The notes: generated by a model from the letters alone, not told the origin. A DNA stretch of 64,000 bases from Sandaracinaceae bacterium (GCA_019694315.1 JAIBCE010000004.1:1-64000); one strand, 5' to 3'. Positions 23,565 to 29,916 are shown, counted from the stretch's first letter. A program made the numbers and translations.

Positions 23565-24377
23565 TCACTGGCACTGGAGCTCCATCGTCCAGCCGCGGAG
23601 CTCGCCCATGTCGGCCCGCACGTCGTCGCGCACGATGAGCTGCCAGTCGCCGCCGGAGGTGTGGCCCACCGCGCGGCGCACGCTGTGCCGGCTGAAAGGA
23701 TTGCCGCGCGAGTGGTTCTGGAGCTGGTAGCGCTGTCCGTCCGGGCCGACGAGCGTGATCACGAGGTCCGAGAAGAAGGTGTGCGTGCCCGCGAGGGTGA
23801 CGTCGAGATCCCCGATCACGCAGTTCACGTCCACGTGCGCCGAGCCGGTGGCGGTGCCCATGTCGGGGATGCGTCCGCCGCCGCGACCGCGCACGGTGAT
23901 CGCGCGCGCGCCGCCCGGCGTGGTCGGTGTCGTGGGTGTCGTGGGTGTCGTCGGCGTGGTCGGTGTCGTCGGCGTGGTCGGTGTCGTGGCCGTCGTCGGC
24001 GGCGCGCCCAGGCCCTGATCGGGCTGCATCAGCACGTTGAGCGTCAGCGTGTTGTTCACGGGCGATGCCGTGATCGTCTGCGTCTGATAGCCCGGGAGCT
24101 GGAAGGTGAATTCGAAGGTCTGCGTTTCGCCGGGACGCGGCCTGGGCACCGGCACCTGCGTCGTGAACGGCGTGCGGCCGAGCATCGCGCCGCCTCCGGT
24201 GACGGTCGCGCCCGCGGCCGTGCTCGCCGCCGACGCGCTCACGAGCACCTGATCCGCGGGGATCGCCGGCGGCTCGGCGGTCACGGTGGGCGGCGGCGTC
24301 GAGCTGCGGCCGCTACAGGCGCTCGCGCCCAGCGCGAGCAGGGTCCAGAGGAGCGTCGTCGGGATCGAGGGGCGCAT
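23565..24377 (-). CDS. Lipoprotein with Thr-Thr-Pro repeat and P-domain
   Basis: 270 residues from ATG 24377 (an ATG six codons earlier is also possible). Signal peptide with lipobox LGASAC, so an anchored lipoprotein. The middle resembles a PEGA-like beta domain (PFTTQVPVPRPRPGETQTFE). A run of 8-9 TTP triplets, coded by a 9-bp DNA repeat at about 23920-24000, forms a rigid spacer. The C-terminus is a proprotein-convertase P-domain: DVTLAGTHTFFSDLVITLVG, then GDWQLIVRD and LRGWTMELQCQ. P-domains normally accompany secreted proteases; here no protease domain is present. Its start lies inside the end of the TetR gene. Confidence 0.75.
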   Translation of the reverse strand: MRPSIPTTLLWTLLALGASACSGRSSTPPPTVTAEPPAIPADQVLVSASAASTAAGATVTGGGAMLGRTPFTTQVPVPRPRPGETQTFEFTFQLPGYQTQTITASPVNNTLTLNVLMQPDQGLGAPPTTATTPTTPTTPTTPTTPTTPTTPTTPGGARAITVRGRGGGRIPDMGTATGSAHVDVNCVIGDLDVTLAGTHTFFSDLVITLVGPDGQRYQLQNHSRGNPFSRHSVRRAVGHTSGGDWQLIVRDDVRADMGELRGWTMELQCQ

Positions 24378-25176
24378 CGCGCGGCGTTGTACCATGGGGC
24401 TCGCTCGGAGGTTCGGTGGGGCTCGGACCTTCGCGCAAGAGCCCGCCTTGGCGCATCACGCCGATCACGTCCTCGCGAAGGCCCGAGAGCAGTGGAAGGC
24501 TCAGTATCGTCGCGATCTCCGCAGCGAGACGCGCGCTGCCCTCCGCGAGGAGGCGGGTCTCCTTCTGGCCCGGCGACTCGTCGTGCACGAAGCGCAGGAG
24601 CACCCCGAGGTGCAGCGCCCAGAGCGCGAGCGCCATCGGCTCCTTGAGCGAGTCGTCGAGCTCGGGCACCTCCGCCACCTCTCGAAACAAGGCGATCGAG
24701 CGCGCACGGAGCGTCTCGGTCTCCTTCGAGAAGAGCGAGATGGGGTTCTTGGCGTCGAGCACCGTGCGCGCCATGACGAGCAGCACCGGCCGATCGGCGG
24801 AACGCACGTCGATGCCCACGAGCAACGCCGCCTCGATGCGCTCCGCGAGGCCCTCGCGGCTCGCGAGCGCCTTGCGCGTCTCGGTGTCGTGCCGCGCGAT
24901 GTGATCGCCGTAGAACGCGAGCGCGAGCGCCTCTTTGTTCTCGAAGTAGTGGTACGCGAGCCCGAGCGAGACGTGCGCGTTCGTCGCGATCTCTCGCATC
25001 GTCGTCGCGTCGAAGCCCTTCTTGCGAATGAGCGTGAGGGCCGCGTCCTGGATGCGCTCGCGCGTGGCCTCCGCGTCTCGACGTCGCGGCGCGACCTCGG
25101 CCGTCTTCTGCGCGCCACCCCGCGTCGCGGCCCTGGCCTCTCGCGGCTTGCTCGGCTTGCTCGGAGCTCTCGCCAT
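24313..25176 (-). CDS. TetR-family transcriptional regulator
   Basis: 287 residues, longer than the usual 190-220 because of a basic N-terminal tail (about 35 residues) and a Pro-rich C-terminal tail. The HTH runs ATRERIQDAALTLIRKKGFD to TNAHVSLGLAYHYFENKEAL. The ligand-binding part is not close to a family I know. The last 65 bp overlap, in another frame, the start of the lipoprotein gene downstream. It lies 84 bp after the TonB-receptor/lipoprotein genes on the same strand, so co-transcription and control of those genes are possible but not shown. Confidence 0.85.
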   Translation of the reverse strand: MARAPSKPSKPREARAATRGGAQKTAEVAPRRRDAEATRERIQDAALTLIRKKGFDATTMREIATNAHVSLGLAYHYFENKEALALAFYGDHIARHDTETRKALASREGLAERIEAALLVGIDVRSADRPVLLVMARTVLDAKNPISLFSKETETLRARSIALFREVAEVPELDDSLKEPMALALWALHLGVLLRFVHDESPGQKETRLLAEGSARLAAEIATILSLPLLSGLREDVIGVMRQGGLLREGPSPTEPPSEPHGTTPRDAPLDPDDAPLDPARAGRERL

Positions 25177-25260: not shown

Positions 25261-26175
25261 TCAGAGCCCGCGATCGAGGTGCATGTGGCCGACGCCGTTG
25301 GCGAGGCACTCGCCTTCGCCGTTGAGGTGACCTTGCGTCTGGAGCTGCGCGCGGGCGTAGAGCGACATGTTGGTGATCGCCATGCCCTCCACCGTGGGAG
25401 CCCCGGTGAGCGCGTAGTCGCTCGCGGGGAGGATCGAGATGGGTGTGCCCTCGAGATCGGCGTTGTCGACCGTCCCGTCGGCGCCCGTCGCGTCGTCCAC
25501 GAGGGCGAGCCAGCCCGCACGTCGCGTCACGACCGCCTCGTCGCCTGCGGGGAAGCCGTTGAAGAAGAGGTGATCACCGTGCACCGTCATGAACGCGGTG
25601 CTCGAGCCCGCCGACACCACGATGCCCTCCATGCCGTCGGTCGAGGAGCACGCGTAGTCCGCTTCGGCGTCCAGACACACGTCGAACGTGATCGTGCGCG
25701 TGCCGTTCTCGGCCGTCCCCGCGATCAGATAGCTACAGCCCTCGGCGACCATGCGATCGAAGTCGGCCTGGGACACCGACGTGTCCCGCGTCATGCCCGC
25801 CGTGGCGACCGGCATGGAGTACTCGAACGCATAGCGGCCCTCCGCGAGGGGACCTGTGCGAACCACGCGCCCCGTCTCCGGGATCGTCGTGAGGTCCACC
25901 ACCAGGTCCATCGCCGTCACCACGGAGGCGCCCCCCGCCATCGACGTGAGGTGGAGCTCGCCGAAGGTCGTCACGTACTTGTCGAACGTGACGTTCCAGC
26001 CGTCGACGATCTGCTCCTCCGCGGTGCCCGCGCTGAGCCCCTCCGTGATCGTGTCCTCGGCCTGGATGGCCACCGTGAGATCACCGTTGGGGCTGCCCGA
26101 GCCGCCGCAGCCTGCGAGCGCGGCCGCGAGGGCGCCGAGGACGACTCGGCGGGTCTTGATACGCAAATGATTCAC
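25261..26175 (-). CDS. Lipoprotein of the TonB-receptor operon, second member
   Basis: 304 residues from GTG 26175, chosen for a CGGAG site 7-8 bp upstream and the lipoprotein signal that follows (RRVVLGALAAALAGC). The early mature part, VDGWNVTFDKYVTTFGELHL, matches in pattern VGDWDVTVREARLAFGPVYL of the neighbouring lipoprotein, so the two are probably distant paralogues. Further on are FMTVHGDHLFFNG and several acidic loops, and the protein ends NGVGHMHLDRGL; the paired His could bind metal. Four non-lipobox Cys. No known domain. Third gene of the operon begun by the TonB-fusion receptor. Confidence 0.75.
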   Translation of the reverse strand: MNHLRIKTRRVVLGALAAALAGCGGSGSPNGDLTVAIQAEDTITEGLSAGTAEEQIVDGWNVTFDKYVTTFGELHLTSMAGGASVVTAMDLVVDLTTIPETGRVVRTGPLAEGRYAFEYSMPVATAGMTRDTSVSQADFDRMVAEGCSYLIAGTAENGTRTITFDVCLDAEADYACSSTDGMEGIVVSAGSSTAFMTVHGDHLFFNGFPAGDEAVVTRRAGWLALVDDATGADGTVDNADLEGTPISILPASDYALTGAPTVEGMAITNMSLYARAQLQTQGHLNGEGECLANGVGHMHLDRGL

Positions 26176-26210
26176 TTGTATCTCCGTTGCGTGTAGAGGA
26201 CGGAACGAGG

Positions 26211-26231
26211 CCTCCGGACCAGAGCCGGAGG
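26211..26231. terminator. Hairpin between the two lipoprotein genes
   Basis: CCTCCGG (26211-26217) and CCGGAGG (26225-26231) pair around a 7-nt loop, in the 59-bp gap. No T-tract; may be an mRNA stabiliser or partial terminator that sets different levels for the two lipoproteins. Confidence 0.35.
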
Positions 26232-26234
26232 AGG

Positions 26235-26996
26235 TCAGTCGGTGGGCTGCCACTCGAAGGAGGGAAGCGCAGTGACGGTGAGGGCCGTCTGGAGCGCGCT
26301 CGACGCCATGTCGTCGGCGGGTACGTCGATCGGGGCGCCGGGGCTCGGCGCCTCGAGCATCGCGAGCGCGTCGTAGTCGATCATCGACGCCCAGAGCGTG
26401 GGATCGAAGCGCACGACGAGGCCGGGCTCGTGCGCCGTGATCTCGTGCGCCGTGAGGCGTGCGCGCGTCGCCGTGCTGCCGCTCGGCTGCGTGCCGCCAT
26501 CCACGTCGAGCACGAAGCGATAGACGCGCTCGACACCATCGCCGTGATGCATGGCCACGAGCTCGATCACGGCCGAGTGCGCACCGTCCACCGCGCCTGC
26601 CAGCGGCCGAGGCTCGGTCTCGGACAAGCGCCAGCTGCGCCCGTAGTCCCACATGCCCGAGAGCACGGTGACGCCGGTCGTCGCGTTCAACGTGCCCATC
26701 GGCGTGGGCGTGGGGGAGAGCGCGTCGAAGCTGGTGGCGCCGAGGTGCTCGGCCGCTGCCCGCGCACAGGAGTCGAGGCCCGCGTTCTGGGCCGAGCAGA
26801 GGTACACGGGCCCGAAGGCCAGTCGCGCCTCTCGCACGGTCACGTCCCAATCACCCACGGTGACGGGCTCGGCAGCGGTGCCGGCGGCGGCCAGCGGGAA
26901 GCTCGTGCGTGTCTGTCCCGTGTCGCCGCAGCTCGTCACGAGCGTCGCGGTGAGCGAGGCGAGGACGAGCTCGTGCGTGCAGCGTCGTCGCGTCAT
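26235..26996 (-). CDS. Lipoprotein of the TonB-receptor operon, first member
   Basis: 253 residues. The ATG (26996) overlaps the TonB-receptor stop in an ATGA, so the two are translationally coupled. Signal peptide with lipobox VTSC (Cys23). It shares the DWDV...FGPVYL motif with the next lipoprotein. A central VAMHHGDGVERVYRFVLDVD strand pair and AHEITAHEPGL give a His-rich face. Two more Cys (YLCS and DSCARA) flank the first motif. Unknown family. The tight coupling to a TonB receptor suggests a surface or periplasmic partner for the same ligand, as SusD-type lipoproteins are for SusC, though no SusD similarity is visible. Confidence 0.78.
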   Translation of the reverse strand: MTRRRCTHELVLASLTATLVTSCGDTGQTRTSFPLAAAGTAAEPVTVGDWDVTVREARLAFGPVYLCSAQNAGLDSCARAAAEHLGATSFDALSPTPTPMGTLNATTGVTVLSGMWDYGRSWRLSETEPRPLAGAVDGAHSAVIELVAMHHGDGVERVYRFVLDVDGGTQPSGSTATRARLTAHEITAHEPGLVVRFDPTLWASMIDYDALAMLEAPSPGAPIDVPADDMASSALQTALTVTALPSFEWQPTD

Positions 26997-29809
26997 GGGA
27001 TCTGGGCTCCGAGCTGCACGAGCAGCGTGAAGGGCTGTCCGGCGGCGAAGTGACGCGCAGGAAGACGCGAAGTGAGGCCCTCGGACTGGTTCTGGAACGA
27101 CGGATCCTGCCAGTCCGAGGCGAACGCGTACTCCACGGCGGCATAGCGACTGTCGGTGAGGTTGTAGATGTCCACCGAGAGCTCGATGCCGTGCCACTCC
27201 ACCCCTGCGCTCGCGTCGAGGAGGCCCACGGGCTCCGAGCGCTCTCCATACGGAAGGGGCCTCGACGAGAGCACCGAGACACCCGCGCCGAGGTGCCCTC
27301 GGAACGGCGTGCCGTCGAGATCGAACAGACGCTCTCTCGCGCCGAGGTCCGCACGGAGCACGAAGGGCGCCACATACGGCAGGAGCTGCCCTGGCTGGTA
27401 AGGCGGATAAGGCTCTTCGATCGTGGGCACCGGCGGCGCGTCGAGCGTGGCGTGCACGTACGTGACCGAGACCTGTCCGGTGAGGAAGGGCCAGGGCTGC
27501 GCGCGCAGCTGCGCCGCCACGCCGATGCGCGTGGAGGGGCCGAGGGGCTCGAGGCGCCCCTCGCTCGGATCGAAGGCGATGTCGCGCGAGAGCGCCGTCA
27601 CGAAGCCCGAGACCGACGCGGTGAGCTCGTCGTGCTCGCCCACCCGCAGACGCGCGCCGACATCGCCGGACCACACCTTCGCATACGGTGCGGACTCGCC
27701 ATCTTGCAATTGACGCGCTTGCGGCGAGCGATAGCCCTCTCCGTACGCGACCGAGAGGGTCAATTCGCGGATCGGTGTCCACTCGACGCTCGCGCGCGGG
27801 CCCATCGCCACACCCGCCGCCGAGCGGCGGAATCCGAGGAGGTAGCTGTCGCGCCGGAAGCGCGGGATGAAATTGCCGAGTCGATCGTCGACTCCGTAGT
27901 AGAGGAAGTCGGCCCGCGCCCCACCGCGCACGCGCACGTGGTCTCCGAAGTGCAGATCCGCATCCACGTAGGCCCCGAGATCGGCGCCCTGGACACTGGC
28001 ATCCACGCGCTGGTCCCAGGTCTGGTTGAGCGGCGCCTGGAGCAGATTCTGGCTCTGACTGCGCAGATCGACCCGCCCCTGCACGCCGAGCTCGACGAAG
28101 CCAGAGAGCCAGTCGAACGCGGTGAATCGCTCGGTGTGATAGCGGGCCCGGAGCCCCGCGGAGAAGGCCTCGTCGCGCTGCTCGACGATGTCACCGCGGC
28201 CGCGCCACGTGGGATCGTAGCGAGAGATCTCGGTGTATCCCGTGTAGTTGGCCTGGTAGCGGAATCCGGTCCATCCCCCGAAGATCGAGAGCTCGCCGAA
28301 GCTGCCGTTCTGCCCGCGGAGCTCCACGGCGCCCGCGGCCAAGGCCCGAATCGAGAAGGCCGACTGGCCCTGTGCGGCGGCCACCGGATAGGTGCCATAG
28401 AAGTCGACGAGCCCGGCGTTCACGTCGTCACGCCGGAGCACGCCGCCGATGCCGGCGCGCGCCGCCTGCACGGCCGCGAGCAAGCGGAAGCGCACGTGCT
28501 CGTCGCCCCAGACCACCTGTCCGAGGAAGCCCCCGGACTGCCCCTCTCGGTTCGTGCCATAGCCGCCCGTGCGGCGATAGGTCACGGCCGCGAAGGTCTC
28601 TTCGCGCTCCCCCGGAGGCGCCCAGAGCACGAGACCACGGAGCGAGTCGAACATGCCATACGAGGCCGAGAGGCGAACGCCGCGCCGCGCCACGCCGAGA
28701 TCGAAGTCGATGGATCCCGCCGTGGCGAAGTCGCCCTGGCTCGGGTCGTAGACACCCTCGGTCACGCGCACGCTGCGCACGGTCTCGGGGATGACGAAGC
28801 CCAGATCGGCGTAGCCCTGTCCGTGGAGATGCGAGGGCTGGTTGATGGGCACACCGCCTGCGGAGAACGCGATGTCCTGTCCGTGCTCCGCGTCGAAGCC
28901 GCGAAGGAAGATGCGAGGCGCCACGGCGTCGCCCTCGGCGCGCGTCGCGAAGAGACCCGGCGCGACGTTGAGCATGTCGCTCGTGTCGCGGTGGGGCGCG
29001 AGCTCGAGCACGCTGCGGTCGAGCTCGTAGGTGGACGAGGCACGGGGCGCGCGGGCCTCGCGGAGGGGATCGACGACCGCCGTCGCCGAGTAGCTCGCGG
29101 TCGACTCGGTGATCGGGCCTTCGGACTCGCTCTGGCCGGGGGCGCCCGGCTCGGGGGCGTCGCCCTCCGCGCCGTGCTCTCCCTCTTCGCCGTGCTCCTC
29201 CTCCTCGCCTTGCGGGCCCTCCTCGCCGTGCGGGGCTTGGTCGTGAGCAGCCTCTTCGCCGTGCTCGCCATGCGCATCGACGTGTGGCTCGCCGGTGTTG
29301 TGGGCTTCCTCGCCCTCGCCATACGCGTGGTGGGAGCCCGCCAGATCGAAGTGCGGGATGGGTGACTCGAAGCGCACGCTCACGCGCACCGCGGCGCGGA
29401 TCGGCGTGCCACCGCGCGTGGCGGGCTCGAAGCGCCACGTGAGCACCGACTCCACCGCCGCGCGGTCGAACGCCTCGTCGTGCGGCGTCTCGGCGTGGGC
29501 CGTGCTGACGCTCCCGTCGACGTCGACCACGCAGTGCACGAGCACCGTGGGCTCGACGAGCTCGTCCTCGCGATCCTCGGGGTACGCCGGTGCGCTGGCC
29601 TCGACGAGCCGCGGCGGCACGAGCACGGGCGCGGCCGGCGGCGAATCGGGCGGCGCATCAGGTGTGTCGTGCGCGCTCGGCGTGTCGGGTGCGTCTGGCG
29701 CTGCGTCTTGCGCGCTGGCGGGCTGGGCGCCGAGCGCCCACGCGAGCGCGAGCCAGCGCGCGCGCCCGAGGGGCGACGACGCGCGGGACCGGCGCAGGCT
29801 GGGCGACAT
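26993..29809 (-). CDS. TonB C-terminal domain fused to a TonB-dependent outer-membrane receptor, His/Glu-rich linker
   Basis: 938 residues. Signal peptide (about 1-33, ASAQ). Residues 62-148 are a TonB C-terminal domain (PRLVEASAPAYPEDRED, CVVDVDGSV, VLTWRFEPA), which normally belongs to a separate inner-membrane protein. Residues 153-218 are a linker with about eleven His and many Glu (for example EEEEHGEEGEHG). A plug domain follows (about 240-370: RIFLRGFDAEHGQDIAFSAG, SHLHGQGYADLGF), then a 22-strand-type barrel ending PFTLLVQLGAQIP. No iron-siderophore-specific feature is visible; the linker and His in the plug point to a metal such as Zn, Ni, Co or Cu, which is inference. Heads an operon with two lipoproteins. 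Confidence 0.85.
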   Translation of the reverse strand: MSPSLRRSRASSPLGRARWLALAWALGAQPASAQDAAPDAPDTPSAHDTPDAPPDSPPAAPVLVPPRLVEASAPAYPEDREDELVEPTVLVHCVVDVDGSVSTAHAETPHDEAFDRAAVESVLTWRFEPATRGGTPIRAAVRVSVRFESPIPHFDLAGSHHAYGEGEEAHNTGEPHVDAHGEHGEEAAHDQAPHGEEGPQGEEEEHGEEGEHGAEGDAPEPGAPGQSESEGPITESTASYSATAVVDPLREARAPRASSTYELDRSVLELAPHRDTSDMLNVAPGLFATRAEGDAVAPRIFLRGFDAEHGQDIAFSAGGVPINQPSHLHGQGYADLGFVIPETVRSVRVTEGVYDPSQGDFATAGSIDFDLGVARRGVRLSASYGMFDSLRGLVLWAPPGEREETFAAVTYRRTGGYGTNREGQSGGFLGQVVWGDEHVRFRLLAAVQAARAGIGGVLRRDDVNAGLVDFYGTYPVAAAQGQSAFSIRALAAGAVELRGQNGSFGELSIFGGWTGFRYQANYTGYTEISRYDPTWRGRGDIVEQRDEAFSAGLRARYHTERFTAFDWLSGFVELGVQGRVDLRSQSQNLLQAPLNQTWDQRVDASVQGADLGAYVDADLHFGDHVRVRGGARADFLYYGVDDRLGNFIPRFRRDSYLLGFRRSAAGVAMGPRASVEWTPIRELTLSVAYGEGYRSPQARQLQDGESAPYAKVWSGDVGARLRVGEHDELTASVSGFVTALSRDIAFDPSEGRLEPLGPSTRIGVAAQLRAQPWPFLTGQVSVTYVHATLDAPPVPTIEEPYPPYQPGQLLPYVAPFVLRADLGARERLFDLDGTPFRGHLGAGVSVLSSRPLPYGERSEPVGLLDASAGVEWHGIELSVDIYNLTDSRYAAVEYAFASDWQDPSFQNQSEGLTSRLPARHFAAGQPFTLLVQLGAQIP

Positions 29810-29916
29810 GAGGCCTGCTGATTATCGCAAGCGTGTTGCAAGAGCAACCCAAGGGTGACTGTGACCGCGATGCGATGCGCGCAACGCCGCCGCGGCGCGT
29901 GGTAGGAGCGGGCGCC

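Follow-up and report, generated by a model that had tools for sequence, protein, structure and literature searches.

A TonB-dependent receptor with a fused TonB domain and two homologous lipoproteins form a conserved, probably zinc-related operon of Myxococcota

Positions 25,261 to 29,809 of a 64,000-nucleotide stretch from a Sandaracinaceae bacterium (GCA_019694315.1 JAIBCE010000004.1:1-64000), the whole of which is referred to here as the window, encode a TonB-dependent receptor that carries a TonB C-terminal domain and a histidine- and glutamate-rich linker ahead of its plug, followed by two lipoproteins, designated LipoA and LipoB. An original prediction made from the DNA alone had described this three-gene set, and its content stands, with one addition, the strand, left unstated there: the three genes are all encoded on the minus strand (Table 1). 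Our analyses show that the order receptor-LipoA-LipoB constitutes a conserved operon, and its regulatory context suggests that it probably serves zinc uptake.

Results

The coordinates confirm the predicted coupling of the first two genes, the start of LipoA overlapping the stop of the receptor by ATGA, while LipoB begins with a GTG at 26175 after a gap of about 60 nucleotides. A scan of the region upstream of the receptor for a consensus sigma-70 promoter found none; a palindromic, operator-like site precedes the start codon there.

Table 1. Coordinates of the operon and its features in the window.
Feature	Position	Strand	Remarks
TonB-dependent receptor, 938 amino acids	26993..29809	-	Signal peptide, TonB_C, histidine/glutamate linker, TonB box-like segment, plug, barrel
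TonB C-terminal domain, receptor residues 72-147	29369..29596	-	Pfam PF03544, E 1.5e-10, and family-profile matches to solved TonB C-terminal domains
Histidine/glutamate-rich periplasmic linker, receptor residues 153-218	29156..29353	-	11 histidines, 17 glutamates
TonB box-like segment, SYSATAVVDPLRE region	29096..29131	-	Immediately before plug; position and pattern common to unfused relatives
LipoA, 253-residue lipoprotein, MbnP-like predicted fold	26235..26996	-	ATGA overlap with receptor; lipobox C23
LipoB, 304-residue lipoprotein, MbnP-like predicted fold	25261..26175	-	GTG start; lipobox C23
Palindromic operator-like site TTGCAACACGCTTGCGA	29825..29841	-	2 mismatches to TTGCAACNNNGTTGCAA; 15 bp upstream of receptor ATG

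Both a plug (residues 257-364, PF07715, E 3e-8) and a beta-barrel (residues 507-883, PF00593, E 4e-16) exceed their Pfam cut-offs, which makes the protein a TonB-dependent receptor. Its N-terminal segment is a true TonB C-terminal domain, scoring 41.8 bits against a cut-off of 24.6 with PF03544 and 41.4 against 27.1 with TIGR01352, and the profile of the receptor family matches the solved TonB C-terminal domains 6fip, 6i97, 2gsk_B and 2grx_C (E 7e-8 to 1e-5), among them structures co-crystallised with receptors; the domain had been placed at residues 62-148, close to the limits given by Pfam. The 66-residue linker had been credited with about eleven histidines and many glutamates, and the count is exactly as tabulated, an enrichment of both residues over the remainder of the receptor (P = 6e-8 for histidine and P = 1e-7 for glutamate). 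Linkers of related receptors (L036-L041 and L106) also contain histidine, without conservation of sequence. Between linker and plug lies a hydrophobic TonB box, recognised by eye at the corresponding position of relatives with and without the fusion (60+ receptors), the latter having segments such as ETIVVEA and EIVVVSR.

TonB as an energy transducer is defined by an N-terminal transmembrane helix with an SHLS motor motif (PMC12204202). The N terminus of the receptor, MSPSLRRSRASSPLGRARWLALAWALGAQPASAQ, resembles a cleavable signal peptide that leads into the fused TonB domain, and neither a transmembrane anchor nor the S-x-H-x-L-x-S motif is present in it, so that the protein is not an energy transducer in that sense. 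A phmmer search with the window receptor alone found no match among solved structures and a family profile was required; with it, up to E 0.001, the matches listed include PqqU/YncD, BtuB and Cir, and ZnuD is not among them.

Profiles of the two lipoproteins were built from 55 and 71 homologues in the phylum (71 for LipoB). They align with each other over 203 columns at a probability of 98% (hhalign, E 7.5e-14; controls 0.1-0.2%) and, judged by these profiles, LipoA and LipoB are homologues along their full length. The DWxV...FGxxxL motif that had been noticed in both is accordingly more than chance, since the profile alignment accounts for it by common descent. The paired histidines proposed for both proteins held for LipoB, where H199 and H202 (HGDH) and H283 are conserved in 92-94% of the 71 homologues, and failed for LipoA. 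More broadly, the LipoB columns H199, D201, H202, H283 and the C177/C290 pair are conserved in 82-99% of these sequences.

Neither lipoprotein has a Pfam or NCBIfam match. AlphaFold models (mean predicted local distance difference test score 83 and 84) both have MbnP (7l6g) as their best structural match, with Z 9.2 (3.9 A over 194 residues) and Z 8.4 (4.8 A over 199 residues), followed by other folds at Z 6.8 and 6.0; Foldseek alone returned no match below E 0.001 for either. Membership of the MbnP family by sequence was tried and rejected: TIGR04052 (MbnP_like_WxW) gave no match up to E 10 among 11 LipoB members, and profile-profile comparison with 20 myxobacterial MbnP sequences reached only 1.1% for LipoB and 0.3% for LipoA. 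We regard the MbnP-like fold as a lead and not as family membership, because its Z is little above the usual best of unrelated models and sequence profiles lend it no support. Apart from the operon, the window genome contains a gene for a genuine MbnP_like_WxW protein (TIGR04052, E 4e-68; G000:C269:3972-4700).

The gene order recurs across the family, including paralogues whose receptor has no TonB domain. LipoB occurs in 72 of the 194 good genomes of the phylum, and a search around it, which the original prediction had proposed for the lipoprotein pair, covered 60 LipoB-centred loci: the receptor lies within 6 kb in 46, LipoA in 45 and both in 41, while 24 have a receptor with a TonB-like domain. 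Several of the loci without partners are cut by contig ends. LipoB stands about 20 kb from the receptor in one genome (G006) and on another contig in a second (G005), and in both the receptor and LipoA are followed by genes for a FUR protein and a Cu/Zn transporter. The alternative that the lipoproteins are unrelated families that do not accompany the receptor is false, given these counts and the profile alignment.

The upstream regions of relatives contain the palindrome TTGCAACnnnGTTGCAA. Across 917 kb of related loci there are 22 strong matches, compared with 2 in Markov shuffles, and most of the 22 directly precede a gene for a receptor, LipoB or a FUR protein; the 8.67 Mb of the window genome contain just two sites, including that of the operon. 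The palindrome precedes the receptor in the window and in G002, LipoB in G005 and G006, and AztD in G003; it lies between AztD and COG0523 in G007 and between COG0523 and DUF1826 in G008. In the last two genomes this TTGCAAC palindrome also stands before a MerC-family gene (L158/L159) and overlaps the start region of that gene, which may thus be part of the regulon. Control of COG0523 genes by Zur is well established (PMC6103462), and the genes behind the palindrome appear to constitute a Zur-regulon-like set.

A FUR-family regulator (PF01475) is found beside eight loci. The window genome encodes two FUR proteins, one of which, on contig C153, has two CxxC motifs. Of seven operon-linked FURs set against it, six share 45-62% identity with it, compared with only about 30% for the other FUR of its own genome; the C153 protein is the predicted orthologue of the operon-linked genes. 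Other neighbours of the operon in relatives include genes for a Cu/Zn transporter of SO_0444 type (NF033936, E 2e-61) and for a zinc chaperone of AztD type, the latter scoring below the threshold of its model (NF038015, E 2e-51). Directly before the receptor, six loci (L044, L046, L095, L100, L102 and L131) have genes for small exported proteins rich in histidine and cysteine, one of which (L102) was compared with Pfam and had no match; DUF2946 leader proteins occupy the same place before copper receptors in Bordetella (PMC9426467).

The fused TonB domain is present in 34 of the 63 receptors of our tree, a distribution that requires 9 changes compared with 21 when labels are shuffled, and in the window's own clade 23 of 24 receptors keep it. 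Its core features (YP, D-G, FD-AA, W-F-P) persist across deep divergence, and degenerate versions are seen at L042, L045 and L049. This pattern fits early gain and repeated loss, that is, a domain useful but dispensable. Two further TonB-fused receptors are encoded by the window genome (contigs C282 and C595; loci L003/L026 and L004/L028), with acidic, serine-, threonine- and glycine-containing linkers devoid of histidine, and N-terminal matches suggest that genomes throughout the family encode several such receptors each.

A canonical inner-membrane TonB (L024) is encoded in the same genome. ExbB/ExbD-type motor genes adjoin six loci; at L095, L102 and L105 the operons of TonB-fused receptors continue after LipoB with ExbB and ExbD, and that of L095 also includes a TonB whose domain score is weak but which has a membrane anchor as well as a proline-rich stretch. 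In two other loci (L115 and L116) LipoA and LipoB are followed by what appears to be a multi-gene, coiled-coil-rich ExbB-type motor set and not by plain ExbBD.

Discussion

The operon probably encodes a Zur-type-repressed uptake system for zinc, possibly for a wider range of divalent metals, that is driven by the ordinary inner-membrane TonB. Zinc is the best-supported metal, as indicated by regulation and neighbouring genes, and the proposal of a dedicated metal-capture operon gains support from the co-occurrence and mutual relatedness of the lipoproteins. Under zinc shortage the FUR-family protein (the C153 orthologue) would leave the palindrome and the operon would be expressed. Both lipoproteins would sit anchored in the outer membrane and bind zinc itself or one of its ligands, LipoB perhaps through H199, D201, H202 and H283, and would pass it to the receptor or take it from there. 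Inner-membrane TonB with ExbBD would open the receptor by acting on its TonB box, the histidine/glutamate linker might hold incoming zinc on the periplasmic side, and the fused TonB domain would most likely be a periplasmic accessory that engages TonB boxes or the C-terminal domain of TonB and tunes the opening of the gate.

Several observations weigh against this interpretation. The palindrome of the window carries two mismatches, and ten genomes of the family have 0-8 sites each (up to two mismatches), which does not exceed a reversed control pattern, so that only the placement of the sites is informative. The label of Zur box would therefore be a putative one, resting on the genes downstream, and the FUR proteins that were scored all fall below the curated threshold for Zur. 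The histidines of LipoA are not conserved, and some receptors (L039/L040 and L044) lack an adjoining LipoB or both lipoproteins. MbnP, the best fold match of both lipoprotein models, is a copper protein, and the nearest solved receptors are transporters of pyrroloquinoline quinone (PQQ), namely PqqU/YncD (9c4o/6v81, E 2e-21), a kinship that is too distant to fix the cargo.

The last two points are also the basis of a different reading, in which an operon of the same kind handles another cargo, either copper, for which the operons of MbnP/MbnT and CruR-BfrG are precedents, or an organic ligand, for example PQQ or a metallophore; the receptor would take it in and the lipoproteins would bind it. 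MbnP-type proteins do adjoin TonB-dependent receptors in copper loci (PMC3621798, PMC9426467), and the SO_0444 neighbour is annotated for copper as well as zinc. We nevertheless consider this cargo unlikely, because the palindrome marks the zinc-type set of COG0523, DUF1826 and AztD, the MbnP resemblance has no counterpart in sequence, and the window genes flanking the operon include no haem enzyme of MbnH type.

As to the fused domain, our best guess under zinc uptake is the accessory function set out above. It is doubtful, but has to be taken as a serious rival, that the domain with its linker is neutral or vestigial, a module which has spread by copying from receptor to receptor within these genomes and is tolerated. 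The receptor tree, with at least 8-9 gains or losses, the degenerate copies and the presence of the domain in several other receptors of the same genome would agree with this; its near-universal retention in the window clade, with the core TonB features intact, argues otherwise. A bolder suggestion, which we hold to be quite improbable, is that the domain gates transport in response to zinc, either in cis or from one receptor to its neighbour. It would occupy its own or a partner's TonB box until zinc on the linker altered the contact, so that inner-membrane TonB would pull only in the right zinc state. Were this true, each receptor would come with its own internal competitor of TonB, a way of regulating outer-membrane transport of which we know no description.

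The original prediction had held that a TonB domain on the periplasmic side of the outer membrane would have to be energised in another way, or else act as a dimerisation or plug partner. The need for another energy source finds no support: the receptor keeps its TonB box, its genome has an inner-membrane TonB, relatives place ExbBD beside fused receptors, and therefore the fused domain is not a replacement for the energiser, nor could it drive transport, because it has no motor anchor. Hence we reject, as highly improbable, a receptor that energises itself with its own domain in place of inner-membrane TonB; a TonB C-terminal domain and a TonB box do share one chain with a linker long enough for contact, but a signal peptide without anchor or SHLS motif leaves nothing to tie the domain to the proton motive force, and separate TonB and ExbBD exist.

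Fusion of TonB to a receptor is not unique to this operon; it recurs in the two further receptors of the window genome, and it is already annotated in the myxochelin receptor MxcH (NCBIfam NF038079), beyond which model we found nothing on such fusions in the literature. MxcH likewise has a TonB-like N-terminal segment ahead of a full receptor, and the window receptor aligns to model positions 1-91; however, it scores 54.6 bits against a cut-off of 925 over 792 positions, by this segment only, and so falls outside the family. MxcH is moreover a siderophore (iron) receptor, and to our knowledge has no lipoprotein pair. The MbnT/MbnP/MbnH methanobactin loci (PMC3621798) resemble the operon in placing a receptor beside a secreted protein, one whose structure best matches our models, but they contain a single MbnP where the window has two homologous lipoproteins without significant sequence match to it, and the window operon has no flanking di-haem MbnH gene and a context of zinc and not copper type. 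With the Zur-regulated receptors of ZnuD type (PMC6103462) the operon has in common an apparent FUR-family box shared with COG0523 and zinc genes; its receptor probably belongs to another subfamily, nearest to PqqU/YncD, and differs in the fused domain and the paired lipoproteins, and its palindrome is unlike the TATA-centred Zur box of enterobacteria. ZepA (PMC10957091) is also an extracytoplasmic beta-sandwich protein tied to Zur, TonB-dependent transporters and COG0523, but by description it has two domains, is secreted and occurs in other phyla.

In the literature searched we found no description of the homologous lipoprotein pair, of its operon with the receptor or of the regulatory site, and no paper on zinc uptake in Myxococcota. 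Two consequences follow for further work: an unannotated pair of homologous lipoproteins is tied, across this phylum, to a conserved receptor and an apparently zinc-type regulatory site; and the function of receptor-fused TonB domains becomes directly testable, because the same receptor family naturally includes members that have the domain and members that lack it, in operons that resemble each other in other respects.

Within the window the operon is flanked by genes for a TetR regulator and a WD40 protein. The TetR gene (24313-25176) lies downstream of the operon and is adjoined by a minus-strand gene (23565-24395) for a further lipoprotein, which combines a (TTP)n repeat with a proprotein-convertase P-domain (E 6e-12).

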